Source of the DNA: a virus
Reading direction: 5' to 3' (one strand)
IMG/VR virus record: IMGVR_UViG_3300025896_000080
Span: 1-36,534 of that record
Length of the DNA stretch: 36,534 nucleotides
Shown here: positions 5,010-36,534 of the stretch, in pieces
Numbering within the stretch: position 1 is the first letter of the stretch
Layout: each line of letters begins with the position of its first letter
Notes under the pieces: generated by a model
What the model was told of the DNA's origin: nothing
Database searches by the model: none
The model's input: only the letters and a program-made list of their open reading frames with translations
Translations under genes and position numbers: made by a program

Positions 5010-6302
5010 ATGAATATTCTTAACCGAGTTTTTAATTATATATGGTCGGGATCGAGTGAATCAATAGCTTACTCCGGTGCTAAAAATTTTAGACTCGGTA
5101 CAGAAAATGTAACACCTGACACTATAAACAAAGTGTCAGCTTACAATAGAGCTGTAAATATAATAAAAAGTCATGTAGCTAAATTAAATTTTGAAATTTA
5201 TGATAGTCAGAAAAATAAAATAAATAATTCAATTCGTTATTTACTTAATGTATCACCCGATGGTGAACTGAATGCATTTGACTTCAAATCTATGATGATA
5301 GAAAGAAGTATTAACAGAGGTAATTTTTACGCTAGAATAATAAAAACGTATTCAGGTGAAATTAAAGCCTTGAAATTCATAGATGATTCTAGAGTTACAC
5401 CTAAACGTGATTTATCCGGTAAACTATATTATGAAATAACCAACAGTAAGACTTCCAGTGTAAGACTTGAAAATTCAGATGTGATACATATAAAAAGCCC
5501 GTGGCTTTCATCAGATGGTTTGACAGGTATGAGTGTATCTACCTATGGTCGAGATGTATTAGGTATATCTCTAAATTACTCTAGTACAATTTTAAATTTT
5601 TTTAAAAACGTGGTTTTACCATTAGGTATATATAAAACTAAAGGTAATCTAGATCCTGAATCACATTCTAGAATTAAATCTAATTTCAATAAGGATGAAG
5701 AGACAGGTAGTGACTCAAGAGGTTCGATAGCTATAGTAGAAGGTCAACATGAGTATGAAAACTTAGAGTACGATGAAGATCCTCTGCAATTTGTTAAATC
5801 AAGAAAATTTACGGTAGCTGAGATAGCTAGATTCTTAAATATTAATACATTATGGCTATCTGATACAGACTTAACAGCTTCAGTTAAATTTAACGATCTT
5901 GAATTAAATCTATATAAAGATACGTTAAGCCCTTGGATTACAAAAATAGAATGTGAAATAAACATGAAGTTACTAAACTTCAGTTATGCCGATAAATATT
6001 GTAGGGCCGATGTGGATATATTAACTCTAGAAGATAAAAAATCAATGGCTGAATACTATAATAAATTACATCAAAATACAGTATACTCCGGTAACGAAAT
6101 CCGCAGTAAATTGAATGAGTCAGATTATGAAGGTGGGAATAGAAGATTTGTAGCCCTGAACAATCTTAAACCTCTTGATAGAATCGACGAAATGATAGAC
6201 TCTGAAATAGAATCAAGTAAACCTCAATTACAACCTAGAGATGTAACAGAGGACGTTAACACTATGGTTATAGAAATGTTTAAAGGTTCACAGGATGAAT
6301 AA
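5010..6302 (+). CDS. Portal protein, HK97 family
   Basis: The dodecameric portal forms the DNA channel at the unique vertex and the docking site for terminase and neck proteins. At 430 residues it has the usual HK97 portal length. Typical segments are YNRAVNIIKSHVAKLNFEIY near residue 50, the NRGNFYARIIK stretch near 105, DVIHIKSPWLSSDGLTGMS near 160, and the wing/stem region with EIARFLNIN near 280. It starts directly after the stop of the small KE/P-rich gene. Finding it after the capsid genes rather than between terL and the protease is unusual for HK97-type modules. Confidence 0.9.
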   Translation: MNILNRVFNYIWSGSSESIAYSGAKNFRLGTENVTPDTINKVSAYNRAVNIIKSHVAKLNFEIYDSQKNKINNSIRYLLNVSPDGELNAFDFKSMMIERSINRGNFYARIIKTYSGEIKALKFIDDSRVTPKRDLSGKLYYEITNSKTSSVRLENSDVIHIKSPWLSSDGLTGMSVSTYGRDVLGISLNYSSTILNFFKNVVLPLGIYKTKGNLDPESHSRIKSNFNKDEETGSDSRGSIAIVEGQHEYENLEYDEDPLQFVKSRKFTVAEIARFLNINTLWLSDTDLTASVKFNDLELNLYKDTLSPWITKIECEINMKLLNFSYADKYCRADVDILTLEDKKSMAEYYNKLHQNTVYSGNEIRSKLNESDYEGGNRRFVALNNLKPLDRIDEMIDSEIESSKPQLQPRDVTEDVNTMVIEMFKGSQDE

Positions 6303-7320
6303 AGAGTTAAGAGAAATACTAATTAAATTAATCGAATCTAGAATTGAAGCTAGAATTGAGTCATTTAATAAACCGGACCGATTGACGTTTGACGATCTTA
6401 CACCTGAGCAAAAAGAACAGCTTAAAGGACCTAAAGGCGATTCAGGTAAAGATGTAGAGTTATCTAGTTTGACTCCATTTTTAGAGATAATGGTTAAAAA
6501 TCATGTTTTTGAAAATTTATCTAAACTTAAATTATCATTCGATGATCTTACACCTGAGCAAAAAGAACAGCTTAAAGGACCTAAAGGTGATTCAGGTAAA
6601 GATGTAAATATAAATGATTTAATACCTGAAATAGATAGAATCGTAGAGAGTAGATTTAACAATTATATTTCTAAACTTAAATTATCATTCGATGATCTTA
6701 CACCTGAGCAAAAAGAACAGCTTAAAGGACCTAAAGGTGATTCAGGTTTAGATTTTGATATAACTAAATGTTTTGATTTAATTAAATCTATTGTAAGTAA
6801 CCATTTAATAGAAAATAGAAAAATATACTCACTTTCATTCGATGATCTTACACCTGAGCAAAAAGAACAGCTTAAAGGACCTAAAGGTGATTCAGGTTTA
6901 GATTTTGACTACATGAAATATGAAGATAAAATAAAAGATACGCTTGCTGAAAACGTAGCTGCATTAAGAGACGATTTAAAATTAAAGTTTTCAGATTTAA
7001 CAGAGGAAGAAAAAGATCAGTTGAAATTTAATTTCTCGAATTTAACCGAATCAGACTTACTTGAGATAGCTAAAAGGGCAGGTAGAGGTCAAAGAGGTAA
7101 AACTGGAATGAGCGCCTACGAAATGGCTGTACTCAGAGGTTATAAAGGTACAGAATCGGAATACATGGTCGGTCTACATGGTGATAGAGGCTTGGACGCA
7201 CCTAAGATAACTTCTGCTGAATTAAAAAAATTAGAAGATAAATCCGTATATGTGGTTTTTACTATGAGCGATGGCAGTACAGTAGAAACTAATACTGTGA
7301 GAGGTCTATATGCTGGTTAG
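6295..7320 (+). CDS. Collagen-like / fibre-motif structural protein
   Basis: 341 residues built from a 50-residue repeat present five times (the fifth degenerate). Each repeat has a nearly invariant block, DDLTPEQKEQLKGPKGDSG, then about 27 residues of differing sequence. The GPKGDSG segments are collagen-like Gly-X-Y, and the variable segments look helical and could trimerise. The C-terminus (about 270-305) carries a phage-fibre motif, SAYEMAVLRGYKGTESEY, followed by LHGDRG. These features suggest a trimeric virion fibre. Its position overlapping the portal stop by 8 nt and before the connector suggests a neck or head appendage rather than a tail fibre. Confidence 0.75.
   Translation: MNKELREILIKLIESRIEARIESFNKPDRLTFDDLTPEQKEQLKGPKGDSGKDVELSSLTPFLEIMVKNHVFENLSKLKLSFDDLTPEQKEQLKGPKGDSGKDVNINDLIPEIDRIVESRFNNYISKLKLSFDDLTPEQKEQLKGPKGDSGLDFDITKCFDLIKSIVSNHLIENRKIYSLSFDDLTPEQKEQLKGPKGDSGLDFDYMKYEDKIKDTLAENVAALRDDLKLKFSDLTEEEKDQLKFNFSNLTESDLLEIAKRAGRGQRGKTGMSAYEMAVLRGYKGTESEYMVGLHGDRGLDAPKITSAELKKLEDKSVYVVFTMSDGSTVETNTVRGLYAG
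6391..7029 (+). repeat. Five-copy repeat with exact 150-nt period
   Basis: Copies begin at 6391, 6541, 6691, 6841 and (degenerate) 6991, each exactly 150 nt apart. The first about 60 nt of each of the first four copies are almost identical at the DNA level, including synonymous positions. The other about 90 nt differ strongly in sequence but not in length. Confidence 0.9.
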
Positions 7321-7951
7321 TTTATCTGATATGAAGACTCATTTAGGTGTAGTAGGATCTACGTACGATACTTTTTTAACCGATCAGCTAAACGTAGTAT
7401 CTGCAGCAATAGAAGGTTACTGCGGTCGGAAGTTTATACAAAACCAATATACTCAAACTTTTTATCGTGATGAATATAAATTAGCACCAAAAAGGTTAAT
7501 ACTTTATCACTATCCGGTAGTTTCAATAGATGACATAGAAGAAGATGATGTAGATTTAGAATCGACAGATTATAGAATATCGAAAAATAACGGTATATTA
7601 GTATCTGAAAACAATGGATTTATGATTTGCGCTGATAAATTAGAAGTAACCTATACTTCAGGTTATCTATACGCTGATATACCTTATGTGATAACCTATG
7701 TAGTTAAAGCTATAGTTAAAGAAGCCTACGATAGGAAAGTATCAGGTTTGGATGTTTCAGTAGGTAAAGAAGTAAGCAGGATGTCGTTAGTTGGAGTTAT
7801 AAGCTTTGATTTTGACCATACTTTGAGTAATTCAGATCGAGATATTAAATTCGGTAAAATCATAGGTAGTTACGTTAATATGTTAGATCCGTATAGAACT
7901 GAACACTCATTAGGTTTAAATTCTGGTCAAATATACATAGTGGAGACGTAA
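7310..7951 (+). CDS. Head-tail connector protein (gp6/gp15-like adaptor)
   Basis: 213 residues. The N-terminus (LVSLSDMKTHLGVVGSTYDT, then LNVVSAAIEGYCGRKFIQ) matches the helical start of phage head-tail connector/adaptor proteins that bind under the portal. A middle section, YHYPVVSIDDIE, and the helical C-terminal part (YVVKAIVKEAYDR) are also typical of the family. The ATG overlaps the end of the collagen-like gene by 11 nt. The next neck gene starts directly after the stop. Confidence 0.8.
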   Translation: MLVSLSDMKTHLGVVGSTYDTFLTDQLNVVSAAIEGYCGRKFIQNQYTQTFYRDEYKLAPKRLILYHYPVVSIDDIEEDDVDLESTDYRISKNNGILVSENNGFMICADKLEVTYTSGYLYADIPYVITYVVKAIVKEAYDRKVSGLDVSVGKEVSRMSLVGVISFDFDHTLSNSDRDIKFGKIIGSYVNMLDPYRTEHSLGLNSGQIYIVET

Positions 7952-8287
7952 ATGTTATCGGTAGCTAATACCTTTAGAACTATAGTTAGGATGGTTACTA
8001 GAAATCAAAAACCTCACACTTGGACTAGATATGGTGATCCAGATGTAACAGGTAACGTAGCTTTAGCTAAAAGTAATTACTTTAGAAAGTTAGTAGCCAT
8101 TGAAGAAATTAATCTTAGTGGTTATGAATTTATAGTGTTACAGGAAGACTTAACATCTATAGCTATTAGTACGCCTAAGAAGGGTGACGTAATAAATCAC
8201 GCTAATTTCGGAATACTTACTTTAGACTACATAGATCCTATTGAAGATTTAGGTACTGTAATAGCGTATCGTATAAGGACTGTATAA
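7952..8287 (+). CDS. Head-closure / head-tail adaptor protein
   Basis: 111 residues, beta-rich, in the slot between connector and tail terminator where SPP1 gp16-like head-closure proteins are encoded. The text KKGDVINHANFGILTLDYID is compatible with the small beta-barrel of that family. Start codon directly follows the connector stop, and the stop overlaps the next ATG by one base (TAATG), so the neck genes are probably translationally coupled. Assignment is mainly by gene order and size. Confidence 0.6.
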   Translation: MLSVANTFRTIVRMVTRNQKPHTWTRYGDPDVTGNVALAKSNYFRKLVAIEEINLSGYEFIVLQEDLTSIAISTPKKGDVINHANFGILTLDYIDPIEDLGTVIAYRIRTV

Positions 8288-11604: not shown

Positions 11605-14203
11605 GTCATCCAAAAAAGAACTTAGGGATATTGCTAAAGGTTTAGGTGATGTTAATAAAGCTGTATCTTCAATTAATAGTGCTACAAATATTCTTAAAGG
11701 TTTATGGGCAGCTCAACTATTCGGGTTTGGTATAAGTGAATTAACAGGTATGGCCGATAGTATGACTTTAATGGCAGCTAGAGCTACGATATTTTCTAAA
11801 GCAGGTACAGATGTAAATGTAGTTGTAAGTGAACTTATAGACCTATCTAGAGAGGTTAGAGGGCCTATAGATGATATATCTTCTGCTTTTTCAAGAATTC
11901 AATTATCTACCACTGATCTTAACGTCAGTACTGAAGCTCAGATAGCTTTAACTGAAACTTTAGCTAAGTCTTTTAAATTATCCGGTGCTACCACCGCTGA
12001 AGCAGTTAACTCTATGATCCAGCTCGGTCAAGCATTCCAGCGAGGTAGCCTTAGAGGTCAGGAATTAAATTCAGTATTAACTCAAAATGCCATAGTAGCT
12101 AAAGCGTTAAAAGATTCAGCTAGAGAAGCGGGTAGTGATGTTAGAACATTAGCTGAACAAGGGTTTTTCACTAACCAAAGAGTATTCGATATATTAAGAA
12201 AAATTGCACCTGAGATTGAAGATCAATTCAGCAAACTACCGCCTACATTCGCTGATATATTTTCAAGACTTAGAACTGAAGTAACTGTAACTGCAGGTAA
12301 AATAAATTCAGCTTTAGGTATATCGAGTGGTATATACAATGGGTTGGAATATATGCTTAAAGTTTTACCTAAGATAGCCGATGTTATGGTTCCGCTGACT
12401 GCAGGTGTAACAGGTGCAGCACTAGCCTTTGATTTATTAGCTGCAGCCATGGGTGGTACTAGCGTAGCTCTTACTGTACTTACAGGTATAGCGGCTAAAA
12501 TCGCTTTACCTTTTACAGCTTTAGCAGGAGCGATAGGGGTTTTAGGTAGTTTAAGTTTACCGATTCTTGTAACTACTGTAGCTGTAGTTGGATCTCTAGT
12601 CGCTGGAATATCTTACTTAACGTCTAAGAGTATAGAATTATACGGTGGATTTAGTGACTTAACTAGCTTGAGTAAAGCTATGAGTTTAACATGGGATAAT
12701 ATTTTAAATAGGTCAATAGTCGGTATATCTTATGCACTAGAGACATTACTTTTAGTAGGTAGGGCTACAGCGGCGTTTTTCACTGCTGGTATATCCGAAG
12801 TTGCGTTTGGTGATTTCTTTAACGGTATTACAGATAGTCTACGAAGATTTAGGGAAGAAGCTAATGTTAAAATCGACACTAATAATATACAGAAAAATTT
12901 AATTTCAATCGAAGCGCTAGCTAATAAAAACTTTTATGAAAATAACGCCAAGAAAGAAAATTCAATATTCGATCAGTTAACAGAGTTATATAATAATTCT
13001 AAAAAATACGGTAATGTAAAAAAAGAAATACTCTCTATATCAGAGCAGATAGGTAGACTTAATTCTGAATTCGCTAAGACAGGTAATTTTGACAAGTATA
13101 ACTCTAGAATAAAAGTATTAGAAAAATTAGAATTAGCTGAGAGGCTTAATAAAGGTCAATTAGCGTTAAAGAAATATAATTTAGAATTAGAAAGACTTGA
13201 TTTAGCTGAATTCCAAAGAAAGCTAGAAGCTGGTAAAGCTTCACTTCTAGAGTTTGAAGTAGCAGCTAATACGTTTAAAATAAAAGAGTTAGCTGATAAA
13301 TTCGATTCAGCTAAAATATCGGCTATTGAATTTAATCAAGAGATATTAAAATTAGCAGATAAAGGCACTGTTGATGTTTTAGATCCTAAAATAGTTGAAA
13401 TATTTAAAAGGTTAAATGTAGAAGTAGGTATATTTTCTAAAGGTATTGAAAACGCTTCTAGTAAAATAAGTTACGGTTTTAAATCCGGCCTTAAGCAGTA
13501 TGAAGATGGGATAATGGGTTTAACTGAAAGTGTAGCGTCAGCTACAACGAGTGTTTTTTCAGAATTAGAAGATACACTACTTGACTCATTCAGCGGTCAA
13601 AAAGATGCTTTCGCTGACTTTAGTAGATTCATAATAAATGAAATACAGAGAATCGTTATCAGACTATCTATAATAAAACCTTTACTTGAGTCTATTAATG
13701 CTACTGCAAATTCAGGTAATTTATTTAATCTGGTAGGTGGACTATTTTCAGGTGGTAATACTTCACCTCAATTAGCTGGTCAAACAGGTTTACTGACTGG
13801 ATCTGAAAGTGGTTCTAACTTAGGTGTTAGTTTACTAGGTACTAAAGGTATACAGAGTATAAGTAATAATTACTCTAACTCATTCGATAACACTATACAG
13901 AAAGCTAACAGTGGTTCTAACTTAGGTGTTAGTTTACTAGGTACTAAAGGTATACAGAGTATAAGTAATAATTACTCTAACTCATTCGATAACACTATAC
14001 AGAAAGCTAACTATGATTCTCAAGTAATAGTTAATGTTACAAATAATACACCTTCAGAAATTAAAGTAACTGAGTCTACTTCATCCGATGGATTTAAAAG
14101 TATAGACATCATGGTTGAAGCTAAAGTTAATAAAGGTATAGCTGAAGGTAAATTCGATAGTTCACTCAGACAGTCTTATGGTCTTCAGAGGAGAGGTCAG
14201 TAA
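11537..14203 (+). CDS. Tape measure protein
   Basis: 888 residues; sets tail length (very roughly 130 nm by the usual 1.5 Å per residue rule) and is ejected with the DNA. The N-terminal region (about 45-235) matches the tape-measure N-terminal domain, with ISSAFSRIQLSTT, QLGQAFQRGSLRGQELNSVL and a LAEQGFF segment. Hydrophobic segments lie at about 275-360, the likely membrane-crossing part, followed by long charged helices (430-640). A Gly/Ser/Asn-rich zone near 735-830 contains a perfect 34-residue tandem duplication. The gene starts inside the T frame of the chaperone and ends in a TAATG overlap with the next tail gene. Confidence 0.93.
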   Translation: MTGNLTPSQIQQRIVRVVVSTPESSKKELRDIAKGLGDVNKAVSSINSATNILKGLWAAQLFGFGISELTGMADSMTLMAARATIFSKAGTDVNVVVSELIDLSREVRGPIDDISSAFSRIQLSTTDLNVSTEAQIALTETLAKSFKLSGATTAEAVNSMIQLGQAFQRGSLRGQELNSVLTQNAIVAKALKDSAREAGSDVRTLAEQGFFTNQRVFDILRKIAPEIEDQFSKLPPTFADIFSRLRTEVTVTAGKINSALGISSGIYNGLEYMLKVLPKIADVMVPLTAGVTGAALAFDLLAAAMGGTSVALTVLTGIAAKIALPFTALAGAIGVLGSLSLPILVTTVAVVGSLVAGISYLTSKSIELYGGFSDLTSLSKAMSLTWDNILNRSIVGISYALETLLLVGRATAAFFTAGISEVAFGDFFNGITDSLRRFREEANVKIDTNNIQKNLISIEALANKNFYENNAKKENSIFDQLTELYNNSKKYGNVKKEILSISEQIGRLNSEFAKTGNFDKYNSRIKVLEKLELAERLNKGQLALKKYNLELERLDLAEFQRKLEAGKASLLEFEVAANTFKIKELADKFDSAKISAIEFNQEILKLADKGTVDVLDPKIVEIFKRLNVEVGIFSKGIENASSKISYGFKSGLKQYEDGIMGLTESVASATTSVFSELEDTLLDSFSGQKDAFADFSRFIINEIQRIVIRLSIIKPLLESINATANSGNLFNLVGGLFSGGNTSPQLAGQTGLLTGSESGSNLGVSLLGTKGIQSISNNYSNSFDNTIQKANSGSNLGVSLLGTKGIQSISNNYSNSFDNTIQKANYDSQVIVNVTNNTPSEIKVTESTSSDGFKSIDIMVEAKVNKGIAEGKFDSSLRQSYGLQRRGQ
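13808..14011 (+). repeat. Perfect 102-bp tandem duplication in the tape measure gene
   Basis: Bases 13808-13909 recur without a single change at 13910-14011. The unit encodes 34 residues beginning SGSNLGVSLLGTKG. Identity at every synonymous site implies a recent duplication or ongoing gene conversion; a change in copy number would alter tape length in 34-residue steps. Confidence 0.95.
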
Positions 14204-25931: not shown

Positions 25932-26888
25932 CTATCGCTGTTGAAAAGGATTAAAAGTGTTCTGTTGAGGTTGAGCTACACCACCTGCTTGCGCCCCAAA
26001 AGGATTAACTTGAGCTTGCTGTTGAGGTTGAGCTACACCACCTGCTTGCGAGCCAAAAGGATTAACTTGAGCTTGCTGTTGAGGTTGAACTATAGAACTA
26101 GGGTTAAATATAGTTTGATGTGGCTGTGCCTGTTGAGGTTGAGCTACACCACCTGCTTGCGCACCAAAAGGATTAACTTGAGCTTGCTGTTGAGGTTGTG
26201 GGTTAAAACCTGAATTTACCGGAGCTAGAGGGCTAGAGCTAGCGCCTTGAGGTAAACCTACAGGCTGATTAGCATTAAACATACCTATAACATCCGGTCT
26301 AACACTAATCACTTCACCGTGACCTATACGCATCATCCCAATAATGTTTAAATACATTCCAGCTTTACCTCTACCTACAGCAGTATGACCTTTAACTGTC
26401 ATAGCTACTTGATAATAGTCACCGCAGTTAAGACCTACGTTAACTGTTTTAGCTTGTCTTGATTGATAATCATAATCAGCAAACGTAGGTGGCCAATAAC
26501 TACTTAAAGTTAATACGAAATGACCAGCGTATCCTGTTCTCTGATTAAATGGATTATTTCTAGAATCTGCTGCGGTTGAATCACCATCTATCATCTTCCA
26601 ACTAAAGTCTGAGCCTCTACCTGAAAAATTATAACTTAAAGGGATACCTAATGCTGAAGCTTCAGCGTTAATAACTGAAAATACTTCACCTCTACCACCT
26701 TCTTGTGTTTCATTCATAACCGATTTCGGTATTGCGAACATATAACACCATTGTTTTTTAGGTTGACCTGATTCATCCAGTACAGGTTTACCATCGTCGT
26801 CCGTTACAGGACCGCCATTAAATAAATCCCCTACGAGACCTACCATACGGCATTCTTTTATTAATACTGATTTACCTTTTGTTTCCAT
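25932..26888 (-). CDS. ssDNA-binding protein (DUF2815-like) with Q/P/NPF-rich repeated tail
   Basis: 318 residues. The first about 195 resemble phage single-strand binding proteins of the DUF2815 kind: KQWCYMFAIPKS, NNPFNQRTGYAGHFVLTLSS, and the central strand CGDYYQVAMTVKG. It is co-transcribed with a DUF2800-type nuclease and the polymerase, the usual partners. The last about 115 residues are low complexity, with a 19-residue unit, QPQQQAQVNPFGAQAGGVA, nearly three times over. Five NPF tripeptides occur in all. The tail ends NPFQQR and lacks the acidic end common in bacterial SSBs, so partner contacts may use NPF motifs instead. Good GGAGAAG ribosome-binding site. Confidence 0.75.
   Translation of the reverse strand: METKGKSVLIKECRMVGLVGDLFNGGPVTDDDGKPVLDESGQPKKQWCYMFAIPKSVMNETQEGGRGEVFSVINAEASALGIPLSYNFSGRGSDFSWKMIDGDSTAADSRNNPFNQRTGYAGHFVLTLSSYWPPTFADYDYQSRQAKTVNVGLNCGDYYQVAMTVKGHTAVGRGKAGMYLNIIGMMRIGHGEVISVRPDVIGMFNANQPVGLPQGASSSPLAPVNSGFNPQPQQQAQVNPFGAQAGGVAQPQQAQPHQTIFNPSSIVQPQQQAQVNPFGSQAGGVAQPQQQAQVNPFGAQAGGVAQPQQNTFNPFQQR
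25962..26195 (-). repeat. 57-bp repeat units in the ssDNA-binding protein tail
   Basis: Units start (plus-strand coordinates) at 25962 and 26019, and a third, spaced by a diverged insert, at 26130. They are nearly identical at DNA level, with small changes such as GCCCC/GAGCC/GCACC. The 57-bp period is in frame (19 residues), so copy number can vary without breaking the gene. Confidence 0.85.
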
Positions 26889-31725: not shown

Positions 31726-33693
31726 ATGTTTAAAATAATACCAGTTGAAATATTACCGGATGGTCGAAAAAAACCTCTAATTAAAGACTGGACTGAAAGA
31801 GCCAGTAACGATTTAGATCAAATTAATAAATGGGTGCAGAAATTCGGTAGCAGAATAAAATATTGGGGTATTCCAACAGGTTCAGTAAATGGAATATACG
31901 CTTTAGATGTGGATACTAAAGGTGTTAACGGATGGGATACGATTAGAAATGAAGGTTATCAAATACCACATACCTTAACTCAAAGGACACCTTCAGGTGG
32001 CGCTCACTTTATATTTAAGTATCCTGCTGACGATGGTTACGACTATAAGAATTCTGTAGATACTGAATTGGGTTTAGACACTAGGTCTGAAAAAGGTTTT
32101 ATAGTGTGGTATGAAAGTACTATACCTACGGAATATCACTTAGCTGAAGTACCCGAATGGTTAAAAGTTAAGGTTAGAAAAAAACCGAATGAAATTAGAT
32201 CGGGTAAAATAATACAGGTTAATTCTCAGTTTATAGATAATTTACTTTATGTAGCGTCATGGAATATTAGGAATGCCGAGGCCCACGGTGCTAACAATGT
32301 AATAAACGAAATGGCTTTTAAGGTAGGTCAATACCTATATTCTGGGTTAAATAAAGATCATGCGTTAAATACCTTACTTCATGCAGCTAGAATTAGAGGT
32401 AAAGACGACAGTGAATCTATAGCTACAATTAATTCAGGTCTAGAAGGTGGATCTAAATTACCTGAGATTGAATATTTCGATTGTATTGACGTAAAAAAAC
32501 CAGTTGGATCTATTGATTTAGCTATGTTCGTAATGGCTGGGAATACGAGATATACGCCTGTCAGAGGTACAATACATGAACTATTCGATGATAAAGCTTT
32601 GAAAAGAGAATCACTGTTTGAAGGTTGGTCTACTAAGGATTTATCTATTATATCCGGTGATGGCGGCGTAGGTAAATCGACGTTAGCGATAATGGAATCT
32701 ATATGTTTAAGGTTAGGTCTACCGTTCTTAGGTTTCAATAACAGTTTGCAGGGCGGTAAAACTCTTTACTTAACTGCAGAAGACAATAATAAAAAGATAT
32801 TAGCTGTAGCAGGTAAAATACTAACTCAGATGGGTTATAAGTCAGACTACAACAGATTAAATCATTTACTTGATGGATTTTTTGTAAAACTAGATCCTAC
32901 ATTAAAGTTAGTATCTAGAGATTCATCAGGTGCAATAGTATCGAATAAAGCTATGGTAGATAAAATACTTGAAGCGGCTCAAGATTTAAAACCAGATAGA
33001 ATAGTATTCGATCCTATCAGCTACATGTGGGCTTACGAATCTCAAGTTAATGAAATGGGTGACGCTTTAGCTCAAGCTATGGCTAAAATTAGAGATGAAG
33101 TTAACTGTGAAACTCATGCTGTAAATCACATAGGTAAAACCTCATCTAACCATAAAGATATGACACAATTCGCAGGTAGAGGTGGTACAGCGTTTGTTAA
33201 TAGATCGAGAGTTACTAAGATATTAATAACTTTATCGAATGACGACTACCGTAAATACACAGGTAAAGAATTAAAAGATAAAGAAACAGGTATACTCTGT
33301 AACATAGCTAAATTTACCGATGGTAGTGACCACTTCAATAAACCTTTTGTCATTAAAAGAGAGGGTTACTTATTTGTTAGAGAAGACGTAACTGGATCTC
33401 TAGATGAAGATTTCGAGTCAGATGGTTTAAGTGACCATGCGTTAATGACTAAAATAATAAACTTTATAAAGTATGAAAGGCAGCAAGAAGAGTATCCACC
33501 TGAAGCTATGGTAGAAGCTCACATGACTTCGGGATCTAATAAAATTGCTAAAATTAAATTACGATCTTTGATAGCTAAACTTGAATATCACGGTATGGAT
33601 GGTATTAGAGTTTCCAGAATGAAAAATCCAGATTTAACTAAGTCAGGTAATGTATATTATTTAATTAACGATATGGATGAAGAAATAAAATGA
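31726..33693 (+). CDS. Bifunctional primase-polymerase / RecA-fold replicative helicase
   Basis: 655 residues. The N-terminal prim-pol domain (AEP type) has WGIPTGSVNGIYALDVDTKG (metal Asp pair about 60-62), PSGGAHFIF (the catalytic His region, about 90) and DTRSEKGFIVW (about 124). The C-terminal RecA/RepA-like helicase has Walker A SGDGGVGKST (about 309-318), Walker B DRIVFDPISYMW (about 424) and the AVNHIGKT strand. The protein would unwind DNA and make primers for the family-B polymerase. The ending, SGNVYYLIND, is a small winged-type domain. ATGA overlap with the next gene. A structured leader precedes it. Confidence 0.9.
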   Translation: MFKIIPVEILPDGRKKPLIKDWTERASNDLDQINKWVQKFGSRIKYWGIPTGSVNGIYALDVDTKGVNGWDTIRNEGYQIPHTLTQRTPSGGAHFIFKYPADDGYDYKNSVDTELGLDTRSEKGFIVWYESTIPTEYHLAEVPEWLKVKVRKKPNEIRSGKIIQVNSQFIDNLLYVASWNIRNAEAHGANNVINEMAFKVGQYLYSGLNKDHALNTLLHAARIRGKDDSESIATINSGLEGGSKLPEIEYFDCIDVKKPVGSIDLAMFVMAGNTRYTPVRGTIHELFDDKALKRESLFEGWSTKDLSIISGDGGVGKSTLAIMESICLRLGLPFLGFNNSLQGGKTLYLTAEDNNKKILAVAGKILTQMGYKSDYNRLNHLLDGFFVKLDPTLKLVSRDSSGAIVSNKAMVDKILEAAQDLKPDRIVFDPISYMWAYESQVNEMGDALAQAMAKIRDEVNCETHAVNHIGKTSSNHKDMTQFAGRGGTAFVNRSRVTKILITLSNDDYRKYTGKELKDKETGILCNIAKFTDGSDHFNKPFVIKREGYLFVREDVTGSLDEDFESDGLSDHALMTKIINFIKYERQQEEYPPEAMVEAHMTSGSNKIAKIKLRSLIAKLEYHGMDGIRVSRMKNPDLTKSGNVYYLINDMDEEIK

Positions 33694-33914
33694 TTACAGT
33701 ATGTGAATATTTATTAAGATACAGTATATCTTACGAAGATATACAAAAGTGGGGTAATACCGATAAAAGTAATATTAAATCAGAGTTATTCTTACTTGAT
33801 ATTAGAAACAGACGTTTAGTTTTATTAAATTTAAAACAGTTAAAATGGTTAAATAGCGTTAAAAGTGATTTAATTCGATTTAAAGCTAAAAATAGTTGTT
33901 GCACATCTGTATAA
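33690..33914 (+). CDS. Small protein coupled to the primase-helicase, unknown function
   Basis: 74 residues, mostly helical, Leu/Lys/Asn-rich, ending KAKNSCCTSV with two adjacent cysteines. It starts on an ATGA overlap with the primase-helicase stop, so it is translationally coupled to it. The N-terminus (VCEYLLRYSISYEDIQKWGN) could be a small HTH-like bundle. No family recognised. Confidence 0.6.
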   Translation: MITVCEYLLRYSISYEDIQKWGNTDKSNIKSELFLLDIRNRRLVLLNLKQLKWLNSVKSDLIRFKAKNSCCTSV

Positions 33915-33950: not shown

Positions 33951-34169
33951 ATGATATACCTAAGGTGTCAATGTCAAAAACAGATACCGATAAGCGCTTA
34001 TAAAGTAATTAAAAATGGAATTACTCTAGAGTGTGAATGTGGAATAAAACGAGAAGTAAATTTAAAATTTTTAGAAACAAGAATTAGAGAGCCTAAAAAC
34101 TCTGAAAAAGACAACAAAATTCTGTTAAAAATAATAACAGAAATAAAAATGAAAGGGTTAGATTTATGA
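33951..34169 (+). CDS. Small CxC/CxCG zinc-ribbon-like protein
   Basis: 72 residues. Two cysteine pairs, CQC (residues 6-8) and CECG (about 28-30), resemble a small zinc ribbon. The rest is a basic helix. Strong AAGGGG ribosome-binding site and a 36-nt gap upstream. From this gene on, glycine codons shift from almost only GGT to frequent GGA and GGC, unlike the phage body, so this may be the left edge of an acquired block. It overlaps the next gene by ATGA. Function unknown. Confidence 0.65.
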   Translation: MIYLRCQCQKQIPISAYKVIKNGITLECECGIKREVNLKFLETRIREPKNSEKDNKILLKIITEIKMKGLDL

Positions 34170-34540
34170 GTAAAGAAATAATAATAGTACCACAAGGCGA
34201 TTGCGTCTTAAAAAGATGCGGACCATATGAGAAGTATTTTGGAAAAACTAATGTTTTAAAAATTCCAAAAGATGCAGTAAAGCAAGACACTGTGCTTGTT
34301 TTAAAAGGTGATAATAACAGTCACGCTTTAGCTGGTGGAAATTTTGAAATATTAAAAGACCAAAAACGAACATACGTTAGGGTATTGTCTAGCGGTGTAT
34401 TTTTAAGTCACGTTACAGATTTGAACAGTATGAAGATGGCTGAACACTTTGAAAAAGAAATTCCTGTCGGGGATTGGTTTTATCAACCTTTACAAGAGTT
34501 TGACCACATCTTAAACGAACAAAGAACAATTATAGATTAA
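34166..34540 (+). CDS. Companion protein of the DUF6745-like gene
   Basis: 124 residues. IIIVPQGDCVLKRC at the N-terminus, GDNNSHALAGGNFEIL in the middle, and YVRVLSSGVFLSHV then EKEIPVGDWFYQPLQEFDH match the outline of a small beta-rich family (QGDV ... GHAHR ... HEEH ... G-Y-x-V-x-x-Q-x-E-Y). From memory, that family is often encoded next to DUF6745 genes. The usual GHxH is here reduced to SHA. It starts on the ATGA overlap and its stop lies 17 nt before the DUF6745-like gene. The biochemical role is not known to me. Confidence 0.6.
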   Translation: MSKEIIIVPQGDCVLKRCGPYEKYFGKTNVLKIPKDAVKQDTVLVLKGDNNSHALAGGNFEILKDQKRTYVRVLSSGVFLSHVTDLNSMKMAEHFEKEIPVGDWFYQPLQEFDHILNEQRTIID

Positions 34541-34557
34541 TAAAGGATTATAATTTT

Positions 34558-35412
34558 ATGATAAAAGAACTAACACAAGAACAAAAAAGCAAGTTTCCTG
34601 AATATGTAAAAAAATGGACTGATATTGGCAGATCAACAGGTGTCACGACGCCAGAAATGCGAGAAAAAGCTGAAGAAATAGTTCGCAAAATTTACGAAAT
34701 ATCTAAGTTAAATAAAAATGTTGAAATTGTTTGGTGTACTTCACCAGAAGACGCTTTGAAAAAAGGAGTAAAATCGGATGCCGCAAGATATGTACAAGGG
34801 TATGCAGGCTGGGAAGGATTTGTAGATTTTTTTAGAACAGAATGCGGATTAGTTAAAGAAACAGAAAACTCTCTTGAGGGTGAGCTTTCTAAAAATATAT
34901 TTATGTACTTTGTTTACGACACGAAATGTTTTTTAGTTGAAAAACCGATAGAGATGAATTTTGATTCTCAAAATCGAGCGCATAGTTATAACAGACCTTC
35001 TCATTTGTGGAGCGATGGCAGTTGTTTGTGTCACTTTTCAGGGATTAAAGTACCTATGAAATATGTTAAAGCTAAAACTTTTACAAAAGAAGAAATTCTA
35101 AGCGAGAAAAATGCGGATATACGCCGCGAAATGGTGGCTAAAATTGGAATTATAGAAGCTGAGAAAATATTAGGGTCTGTTTGTATAGATCGTTTAGAAA
35201 CTAAGTTTGGCGGCGTGTATGAATTGCTACTTATAGACTACAATAATTCTGGTGAGGAAAGGCCATATTTAAAAATGAAAAACCCAAGTTTAGAAAACAT
35301 GTACCATATTGAGGGCATTGGTAAAGATGTGAAAACAGTTAAAGAAGCGATTATGTTTAGGTGGGACCTTAAAGAACTACCAGACGAAGACATGATTTCT
35401 TCGGTGACTTAA
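34558..35412 (+). CDS. DUF6745-like protein
   Basis: 284 residues. The family outline, recalled from other bacteria and phages, is visible. An AGWEGFVDFFRTECGL segment (83-98) aligns with the W-x-x-Y/F-x-x-FFR opening. FLVEKPIEMNFDSQNRAHSY and PSHLWSDGSCLCHFSGIKVP (147-166) align with the D-x-x-xRxH ... GPSxxWRDGxxLYxWxGVxVP core. SEKNADIRREMVAKIGI aligns with the EN-x-x-x-RRA helix. Relatives often carry long runs of valine tetrapeptides before this core; here they are absent, and follow instead as separate genes. The very last codons (TCT TCG GTG ACT TAA) read SSVT, a repeat-like unit in the array's own codons. AAAGGA ribosome-binding site. Codon use (CGC, GGC, GGA) differs from the phage body. 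Confidence 0.72.
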   Translation: MIKELTQEQKSKFPEYVKKWTDIGRSTGVTTPEMREKAEEIVRKIYEISKLNKNVEIVWCTSPEDALKKGVKSDAARYVQGYAGWEGFVDFFRTECGLVKETENSLEGELSKNIFMYFVYDTKCFLVEKPIEMNFDSQNRAHSYNRPSHLWSDGSCLCHFSGIKVPMKYVKAKTFTKEEILSEKNADIRREMVAKIGIIEAEKILGSVCIDRLETKFGGVYELLLIDYNNSGEERPYLKMKNPSLENMYHIEGIGKDVKTVKEAIMFRWDLKELPDEDMISSVT

Positions 35413-35413
35413 A

Positions 35414-35650
35414 ATGAAATCGGTGGATTCTCAGGTGAATTCTACGGTGTATTCTTCGGTGAGGTCTGCGGTGTATTCTTCGGTGAGGTCTGCGGTGTTG
35501 GATGCGGTGTGGGCTGAGGTGTGGGATCCGGTGTCTTCTGAGGTGGATTCTGCGGTGGATTCTGCGGTGTGGGCTGAGGTGAATTCTTCGGTGTGGGCTG
35601 AGGTGAATTCTTCGGTGTATTCTTCAAGCTTCGAAAGGTGGATAGAATGA
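35414..35650 (+). CDS. Tetrapeptide-repeat mini-protein 1
   Basis: 78 residues: cap MKSV, 16 tetrapeptides (such as YSSV, RSAV, LDAV, WAEV, WDPV), and the tail YSSSFERWIE. It starts 1 nt after the DUF6745-like stop. There is no strong Shine-Dalgarno, only GGTG about 8 nt before the ATG, so it may be translated by coupling. Every fourth residue is Val. The residue after each Val varies among Y, W, D, N, R, L, S and G. Its codons carry the ribosome-binding site of mini-gene 2 (GAAAGGTGG). No enzyme motif, signal or membrane segment. Confidence 0.8.
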   Translation: MKSVDSQVNSTVYSSVRSAVYSSVRSAVLDAVWAEVWDPVSSEVDSAVDSAVWAEVNSSVWAEVNSSVYSSSFERWIE

Positions 35651-35883
35651 AATCGGTGAATTCTGCGGTGTATTCTTCGGTGAGGTCTGCGGTGTATTCT
35701 TCGGTGAGGTCTGCGGTGTATTCTTCGGTGGGTTCTGAGGTGTGGGATCCGGTGTCTTCTGCGGTGGGTTCTGAGGTGTGGGATGCGGTGTCTTCTGAGG
35801 TGTGGGATGAGGTGAATTCTGCGGTGTATTCTGCGGTGTTGGATGCGGTGAGGTCTTCAAACTTCGAAAGGTGGATAGAATGA
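35647..35883 (+). CDS. Tetrapeptide-repeat mini-protein 2
   Basis: 78 residues from ATG 35647, which overlaps the previous stop (ATGA) and lies 5 nt after AGGTGG; an in-frame GTG 9 nt earlier lies inside that site. MKSV cap, 16 tetrapeptides and the tail RSSNFERWIE. It shares a YSSV-RSAV doublet run with protein 1 near the start, then diverges with GSEV, WDPV, WDAV and WDEV units. The Ser of the previous tail is replaced by Asn. Confidence 0.82.
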   Translation: MKSVNSAVYSSVRSAVYSSVRSAVYSSVGSEVWDPVSSAVGSEVWDAVSSEVWDEVNSAVYSAVLDAVRSSNFERWIE

Positions 35884-36092
35884 AATCGGTGAATTCTGCG
35901 GTGTGGGCTGAGGTGAGTTCTGCGGTGTATTCTGAGGTGTATTCTTCGGTGAATTCTGCGGTGTATTCTGCGGTGTTGGATGCGGTGAATTCTTCGGTGT
36001 ATTCTGCGGTGTTGGATGCGGTGTATTCTGCGGTGTTGGATGCGGTGAATTCTTCGGTGGGTTCTTCAAGCTTCGAAAGGTGGATAGAATGA
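35880..36092 (+). CDS. Tetrapeptide-repeat mini-protein 3
   Basis: 70 residues from ATG 35880 (ATGA overlap). MKSV cap, 14 tetrapeptides, and tail GSSSFERWIE. YSAV-LDAV pairs occur three times (the first two flanked by NSSV), showing local duplication of two-unit blocks. No WDxV unit. Ribosome-binding site supplied by the FERW codons of protein 2. Confidence 0.82.
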   Translation: MKSVNSAVWAEVSSAVYSEVYSSVNSAVYSAVLDAVNSSVYSAVLDAVYSAVLDAVNSSVGSSSFERWIE

Positions 36093-36289
36093 AATCGGTG
36101 GATTCTGAGGTGGATTCTGCGGTGTCTTCTGCGGTGGATTCTGAGGTGAATTCTGCGGTGGATTCTGCGGTGTCTTCTGCGGTGGATTCTGCGGTGGATT
36201 CTGCGGTGTGGGCTGAGGTGAGTTCTACTGTGAATTCTGCGGTGTTGGATGCGGTGAGGTCTTCAAACTTCGAAAGGTGGATAGAATGA
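36089..36289 (+). CDS. Tetrapeptide-repeat mini-protein 4
   Basis: 66 residues from ATG 36089 (ATGA overlap). MKSV cap, 13 tetrapeptides dominated by DSAV, DSEV and SSAV, and tail RSSNFERWIE preceded by LDAV exactly as in protein 2. It is the most acidic member of the set and has only one WAEV. Much of its order (SSAV-DSEV-NSAV) is shared with protein 5. Confidence 0.82.
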   Translation: MKSVDSEVDSAVSSAVDSEVNSAVDSAVSSAVDSAVDSAVWAEVSSTVNSAVLDAVRSSNFERWIE

Positions 36290-36474
36290 ATTCGGTGGAT
36301 TCTGAGGTGGATTCTGCGGTGTGGGCTGAGGTGGATTCTGCGGTGTCTTCTGCGGTGGATTCTGAGGTGAATTCTGCGGTGTATTCTGCGGTGTGGTCTT
36401 CGGTGTATTCTGCGGTGTGGGCTGAGGTGGATTCTGCGATGAGGGATTCAAGCTTCGAAAGGTGGGCAGAGTGA
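36286..36474 (+). CDS. Tetrapeptide-repeat mini-protein 5
   Basis: 62 residues from ATG 36286 (ATGA overlap). The cap is MNSV instead of MKSV (AAA changed to AAT). Twelve tetrapeptides, the last one DSAM with ATG in place of GTG, and a tail RDSSFERWAE with Ala for Ile. It is the most diverged copy, and its stop overlaps a GTG start. Array members thus get shorter along the array: 16, 16, 14, 13 and 12 units. Confidence 0.82.
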   Translation: MNSVDSEVDSAVWAEVDSAVSSAVDSEVNSAVYSAVWSSVYSAVWAEVDSAMRDSSFERWAE

Positions 36475-36534
36475 AGTCGGTGTATTCTGCGGTGTGGTCT
36501 TCGGTGTATTCTGCGGTGTGGGATGCGGTGTGGG
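36471..36534 (+). CDS. Tetrapeptide-repeat mini-protein 6 (partial)
   Basis: Starts with GTG (GTGA overlap with the previous stop) after the conserved GAAAGGTGG. The visible 21 codons encode the MKSV cap and the units YSAV, WSSV, YSAV and WDAV before the window ends. GTG replaces ATG as the start, otherwise the arrangement is the same. Length and tail are unknown. Confidence 0.75.
   Translation, partial: MKSVYSAVWSSVYSAVWDAVW

Follow-up and report, generated by a model that had tools for sequence, protein, structure and literature searches.

The 36,534-nucleotide stretch analysed here, hereafter the window, is the whole of virus record IMGVR_UViG_3300025896_000080, a phage record that ends in a cassette built around a DUF6745 gene. 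The gene order is companion gene, DUF6745 gene, then at least six translationally coupled mini-genes encoding V-anchored tetrapeptide repeats, up to the record end (36534). A survey of further DUF6745 loci revealed that such an array, where one was found, either lies inside the DUF6745 protein or is encoded separately, and that the first residue of its unit is diversified in every array examined.

The DUF6745 cassette at the end of the record

The cassette sits 3' of the primase operon, with the terminase-to-tail block (168-21029) far away, and comprises with its immediate neighbours the following features.

31726-33693, plus strand: primase-polymerase/AAA helicase gene (Pfam Prim-Pol E 2.8e-18, AAA_25 E 1.8e-20), directly 5' of the cassette operon
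33690-33914, plus strand: small open reading frame (ORF) with no family match; its start overlaps the primase stop (ATGA)
33951-34169, plus strand: small Cys-rich ORF with two CxC pairs (CQC..CEC) and no family match; its stop overlaps the companion start (ATGA)
34166-34540, plus strand: companion, divergent member of the QGDV/GHxH family (PHROG 27831-like; leave-window-out profile, alignment)
34558-35412, plus strand: DUF6745 protein, N-terminal FPEYVKKW domain and core, without tetrapeptide array (PF20530, alignment, tree)
34747-34803, plus strand: approximate site of the fused array in relatives, about residues 64-82 of the DUF6745 gene, KKGVKSDAARYV (alignment)
35414-35650, plus strand: mini-gene 1, 78 aa, MKSV...SFERWIE (ORF list, unit count)
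35634-35650, plus strand: representative junction, AAAGGTGG (Shine-Dalgarno-like) and ATGA stop-start overlap, recurring at every mini-gene boundary (sequence)
35647-35883, plus strand: mini-gene 2, 78 aa, MKSV...NFERWIE (this and the following from sequence; unit counts for mini-genes 2 to 5)
35880-36092, plus strand: mini-gene 3, 70 aa
36089-36289, plus strand: mini-gene 4, 66 aa
36286-36474, plus strand: mini-gene 5, 62 aa, C-terminus FERWAE
36471-36534, plus strand: mini-gene 6, GTG start, cut at the record end; the battery may extend further

The ORF at 34558-35412 had been called DUF6745-like in the first-pass annotation, and the profile search bears this out, with a PF20530 match at E 1.3e-10 and 41.4 bits (gathering score 27). 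The conserved residues of the core (NA.IRR motif, core His, DG and GV) are present in the window protein, which is included in the invariant alignment columns H190, N235, A236, R239 and A308. In its relatives L002-L004, 20-40 tetrapeptides stand between the FPEYVKKW N-terminal part and the core, whereas the window protein carries about 15 non-repeat residues at this position. It thus departs from the internal-array architecture of the family, its array being detached. The same annotation had matched the last codons of this protein, for a C-terminal SSVT, to the repeat unit. The letters are there, but the C-termini of relatives are SPDVLT in L006, VPIKLT in L014 and NPNQLT in L018, and because relatives end in ...LT, the final [LV]T is best taken as the family's own C-terminus. 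Only the TCTTCG preceding it recalls the repeat, and may be chance or a junction relic.

The battery contains 74 in-register tetrapeptide units, which correspond to 21 different 12-mers, with V encoded by GTG in 74/74. Eight amino acids, specified by nine codons, occur at residue 1; residue 2 is S, D or A, and residue 3 is mostly A, E or S. At the mini-gene boundaries, an ATGA overlap (GTGA once) follows AAAGGTGG. The recurrent C-terminal FERWIE reads GAA AGG TGG ATA GAA TGA and so holds both this Shine-Dalgarno-like element and the ATGA overlap for the next gene. The description of the repeats as separate capped genes therefore stands as far as the genes go, with at least six coupled ORFs, but the caps appear from their sequence to be at least partly a translation-coupling signal, that is, a ribosome-binding and stop-start junction. 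L064 and L187 even use one 17-base sequence, read in two frames, for both the C-terminal and the N-terminal cap, so that caps should not be taken as protein domains without further proof. A DNA pattern of the junction cap had 0 matches in viral contigs.

With regard to the companion at 34166-34540, neither Pfam nor PHROG gave a match (the latter searched at E 0.1). When a profile was made from seven companions of other phages, excluding the window, it nevertheless matched this protein from end to end among 9,535 ORFs (E 4.9e-5), which supports the expected presence of a companion gene nearby. The window copy aligns over its full length with the other companions (family PHROG 27831), from the QGD start to the R.V/ID end, but it is not recognised by the PHROG model, and its GHxH and HEEH histidine motifs are eroded to NNSHA and AEHFE. 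Throughout the survey the companion is a near-constant neighbour, less than 200 bp from the core in 61 of 76 loci and 0.5-2 kb away in four. It is fused to the core C-terminus in three deduplicated loci (L008, L050 and L225), as well as in L007, L009 and L010, which are near-identical strains of L008. Fusion of neighbouring genes is classic evidence of joint function, and we infer from these sequences that companion and core may be in direct contact. Between the start of mini-gene 1 and the companion gene there is also an inverted repeat, only 75% complementary.

Fused and detached arrays across DUF6745 loci

The survey covered 76 deduplicated loci, among which a few near-identical strains were kept, drawn from viral-contig scans (by protein, by alignments and by a 12-bp-period pattern) and from named phage and plasmid records. 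Automatic scoring placed 36 loci in the fused and 23 in the detached class, with 1 split and 16 neither, and the last two classes were then re-read by eye. This re-reading moved L216, L230, L189, L227 and L200 to the fused class (xQAT, xDAT, I-anchored, degenerate or truncated arrays), and L198 and L205 to the detached class (single long array ORF just 5' of the core). The final table of fused and separate arrays, as proposed in the first-pass annotation, comprises 41 fused and 25 detached loci, 0 with both, 3 cut by a contig end and 7 in which no array was found. Linkage of array and core in other genomes is hence the rule and not the exception, where its constant absence would have spoken against a single cassette.

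The typical fused array is a long run of X-[DAS]-[SQN]-V or -L units located between the FPEYVKKW-like N-terminal domain and the core. The first-pass annotation was right about runs of V-tetrapeptides in relatives, but had placed them simply before the core and not at this usual site. In L216 (7041-8480) and L230 (3814-5268), the array units end in A-T (DQATRQATYQAT; DDATNDAT) and not in V or L, with residue 1 still variable. Detached arrays consist of a single long ORF or of up to 17 mini-genes. L205 (about 7400-7990) and L198 (1-324) show a lone long array ORF directly 5' of a complete core, a third arrangement between the fused array and the battery. The batteries comprise at least 16 mini-genes, starting MN.DEVR, in L023, 11 in L187 (MKQSLNN...NKINETIT), ten clear ones in L226 (METKDIT...NPIRDDLNGN), nine to eleven in L175, eight in L186 and five in L188, with L as anchor. 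The companion-core-battery order of the window recurs in L064, L165, L177, L186 and L188; elsewhere the battery lies upstream or a few kb off.

Mini-genes were present in 0/36 fused versus 23/39 non-fused loci of the automatic table (Fisher p 3e-9, not corrected for kinship). The mini-gene criterion had no match in 551 kb flanking 47 fused loci (including a few duplicates), in about 201 kb of control strands, or on either strand of the remaining 35.4 kb of the window, which indicates that the detached batteries are not due to chance. A more general 12-bp-period GT pattern returned 80 loci, mainly GT-rich simple repeats, yet L064 was among them. The contig of L178 (G152), from a large phage, carries long GT-rich arrays of VTVGVTV type at about 80700-93600 and 217400-218900, with a unit unrelated to the DUF6745 arrays.

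In a tree of the N-terminal part and core, the window nests within fused lineages with support 99/96, while L023 and L064 group with the fused L016. In a larger tree, at least eight changes of the detached label are required along branches with support. Taken together, these placements and label changes indicate that detachment occurred, or was reversed, repeatedly. The window phage itself is without close kin in the viral-contig collection, as single-sequence scans with the companion, primase and mini-gene gave no confirmed relative. A scan of genome contigs found a single locus, in a Nitrospirae metagenome-assembled genome; 4/148 genomes of this phylum match (3 over the cut-off), and the DUF6745 family is sparse in it.

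Variation of the unit and predicted structure

Changes between units were counted on minimum-spanning networks of unit types in each of 54 arrays. Residue-1 amino-acid changes exceed silent changes over all four codons in 54/54 arrays, with totals of 208 versus 66 in fused arrays (sign p 5e-10) and 519 versus 234 in detached arrays (sign p 5e-7); the p-values are indicative only, since the networks are built on recombining arrays. Silent changes would be expected to be as frequent if residue 1 were merely unconstrained, and with the excess observed the array looks like a recognition surface. The first-nucleotide entropy of the units averages 1.5-1.7 bits. At residue 1, W accounts for 16-20% and R for 19-28% of units, followed by G, Y, D, S, E and N, and the same set (W, R, G, Y, D, N, S) recurs on the unrelated backbones DSV, AQV, SQL and QAT. 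Tryptophan makes up about 1% of ordinary protein composition. In L018, the 41 units vary at bases 1 and 2 only. The arrays also turn over in length: L007 and L008, which are 99.5% identical, have 10 and 20 units, respectively, and a difference of 2 versus 6 mini-genes separates L172 from L173, whose identity near the cassette is about 95%.

AlphaFold2 models of the L007 core-companion fusion (18 rows) show the N-terminal part and core with confidence and the array as two helices, the companion being unresolved. A mini-gene product is modelled as a single long helix with a predicted local distance difference test (pLDDT) score of 84 and a predicted template modelling score of 0.39, and arrays in general are drawn helical at pLDDT of about 70-90. 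This helix should be regarded as provisional, because low-complexity repeats often model as helix and the residues involved are not strongly helix-forming. PDB sequence searches with core and companion profiles gave no convincing match, and in a viral structure library the strong matches to the core were DUF6745 relatives and one phage fragment only.

The neighbours in ten loci include methyltransferases, a Cas4-type exonuclease, homing endonucleases, ATPases, a transposase and a ParB-like protein, and there were 0 structural genes among 20 sampled neighbour genes. Such a set agrees better with an early role directed at host or DNA than with one in the virion. Further repeats occur elsewhere in the window. 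In an ORF at 6295-7320, LSFDDLTPEQKEQLKGPKGDSG occurs four times as a 150-bp tandem repeat, giving a collagen-like linker of a kind typical for proteins associated with tails; a perfect 102-bp tandem duplication lies at 13808-14011, near the C-terminus of the tape-measure ORF; and 57-bp repeats (QAQVNPFGAQAGGVAQPQQ) are found at 25962-26198, where the minus-strand ORF 25932-26888, a neighbour of the DNA polymerase gene, has its C-terminus.

Possible functions and relation to known systems

We can propose that the DUF6745 core and the companion form a constant pair working with a variable tetrapeptide array. The latter would probably be an extended, largely helical rod, in which the first of the four residues faces a changing partner. 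In most phages, this rod would be built into the DUF6745 protein between N-terminal domain and core, whereas in the window phage, and independently in others, the internal array may have been lost and replaced in trans by short, translationally coupled genes. One core could then pair with several alternative rods, which would change through unit shuffling and gene duplication. The most likely use of such a module would be the recognition of host or competitor factors early in infection, and we regard this reading as a whole as tentative, its chances falling just short of even. The more precise choice of counter-defence or host takeover is a guess drawn from placement and diversification. In this picture, detached rods would bind the core and residue 1 would contact the target. 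The first-pass idea of a constant protein acting with exchangeable repeat peptides is thereby retained by inference, as mutual exclusion, repeated detachment and residue-1 diversification all point toward it, and the repeats look like a real, swappable working part. A combinatorial form of recognition with no known counterpart, possible though doubtful, would have the DUF6745-companion complex load one of several exchangeable rods, each with a distinct W/R/G/Y/D/N/S string at residue 1, new specificities arising through reshuffling of 12-bp words and duplication of coupled mini-genes.

Several points weigh against recognition by a constant pair and a variable rod, besides the indicative nature of the p-values above. 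Array-less cores exist, so that the array is not universal: none was found in the 7 loci mentioned, L006 and Microcystis phage Ma-LMM01 among them, whose whole records showed no V- or QL-type array when searched. In L185 (7920-9002) and L231 (7998-9044) the N-terminal part is intact and an array was not found by the searches used. The helix call uses 18-19 low-complexity repeat sequences, and the residues G, N, S, Y and W do not favour helices. No solved fold is recognisable in the core (in the PDB fold search no match at E <0.001 and no VIA-align row above Z 3.2). The PADLOC and NCBIfam defence profiles gave no significant match for core, companion or array, low-complexity matches being far below the cut-off. 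Finally, placement in an early region is also compatible with a replication role.

The arrays might instead act as multivalent rods or as coiled segments through which core and companion oligomerise or condense, with residue 1 exposed and tolerant and with detachment altering stoichiometry only. Low complexity, variable length, strict periodicity, the helix predictions and the difference in array length between near-identical strains would all suit such an assembly polymer, but a tolerant residue 1 should not exceed silent changes, as it does in every array counted, nor would one expect the same residue set on unrelated backbones with W so far over its ordinary share; we consider this explanation rather unlikely. 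The bias of residue 1 to arginine, aromatics and glycine, together with the frequent DNA-acting neighbours (methyltransferases, Cas4-type exonuclease, ParB-like protein, homing endonucleases), recalls a modular nucleic-acid binder, in which residue 1 of each unit would read bases or phosphates in the manner of TALE or PUF proteins and the core would act on the bound DNA or RNA. A 55-residue piece of the core even resembles, very weakly, mycobacterial topoisomerase I in its C-terminal region (Z 3.2), but this match is below a meaningful level, the four-residue pitch fits no known reader's base step, and the Pfam search found no nuclease or nucleic-acid-binding domain in the core, which makes this role quite improbable.

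A role in virion or adhesin diversity, raised in the first-pass annotation, supposes that the particle displays the peptides, which would change along with the receptor. Hypervariability, copy-number change and the phage setting agree with it, but it is disfavoured, and in our view very improbable, given that none of the 20 sampled neighbours is structural, that the cassette follows the primase operon away from the 168-21029 block, and that DUF6745 proteins are found on plasmids too. The slightest chance is left to a DNA-level element, in which the 12-bp array is a recombination or regulatory repeat with incidental open frames. Codons 2-4 are nearly frozen in the DNA of many arrays, other frames of the array are open too, and the record ends inside the array. 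Yet the 102 V-anchored units of L023 use 96 distinct 12-mers, with an almost random third base in the V codon (1.57 bits), so that the protein pattern outlives the DNA pattern; furthermore, start-stop coupling is found at every junction, and homologous arrays lie in frame within DUF6745 proteins.

With regard to described systems, PF20530 (PHROG 31813) is catalogued without function and the parts list is not new. Gp174 of Microcystis phage Ma-LMM01 has the DUF6745 core in common with the window and an adjoining companion (gp175), but the phage is without array. Mycobacterium phage prophiGD102-1 shares the core (gp38) and an adjoining companion (gp37), with a fused array (xxQL) where the window has a separate battery. 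TALE and PUF proteins similarly combine a constant backbone unit with one hypervariable position and change in unit order and number; they differ by a unit of about 34-36 residues instead of four and have no sequence relation, and the array here is available in trans. Diversity-generating retroelements likewise place a few strongly variable codons on a constant scaffold, but here the variation extends across hundreds of repeats whose silent sites are frozen. As a source of the diversity they were rejected, reverse transcriptase (PF00078) being absent from 11 records, namely, that of the window and 10 related ones, and found in control genomes. The open-access literature searched, outside which most subscription papers lie, does not mention DUF6745, these repeat strings or tandem tetrapeptide batteries. 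The system itself, above all the choice between fused array and battery combined with a diversified residue 1, has no description in the material searched.

A family known by a DUF number thus gains a definable three-part architecture: a near-constant partner, an array that varies, and a recurrent switch that places this array either within the protein or in a battery of small genes, a choice that recurs in dozens of other phages. The diversification of residue 1 in every array examined suggests an arms race, and with so tiny a unit the recognition code, if any, could be within reach of simple experiments.

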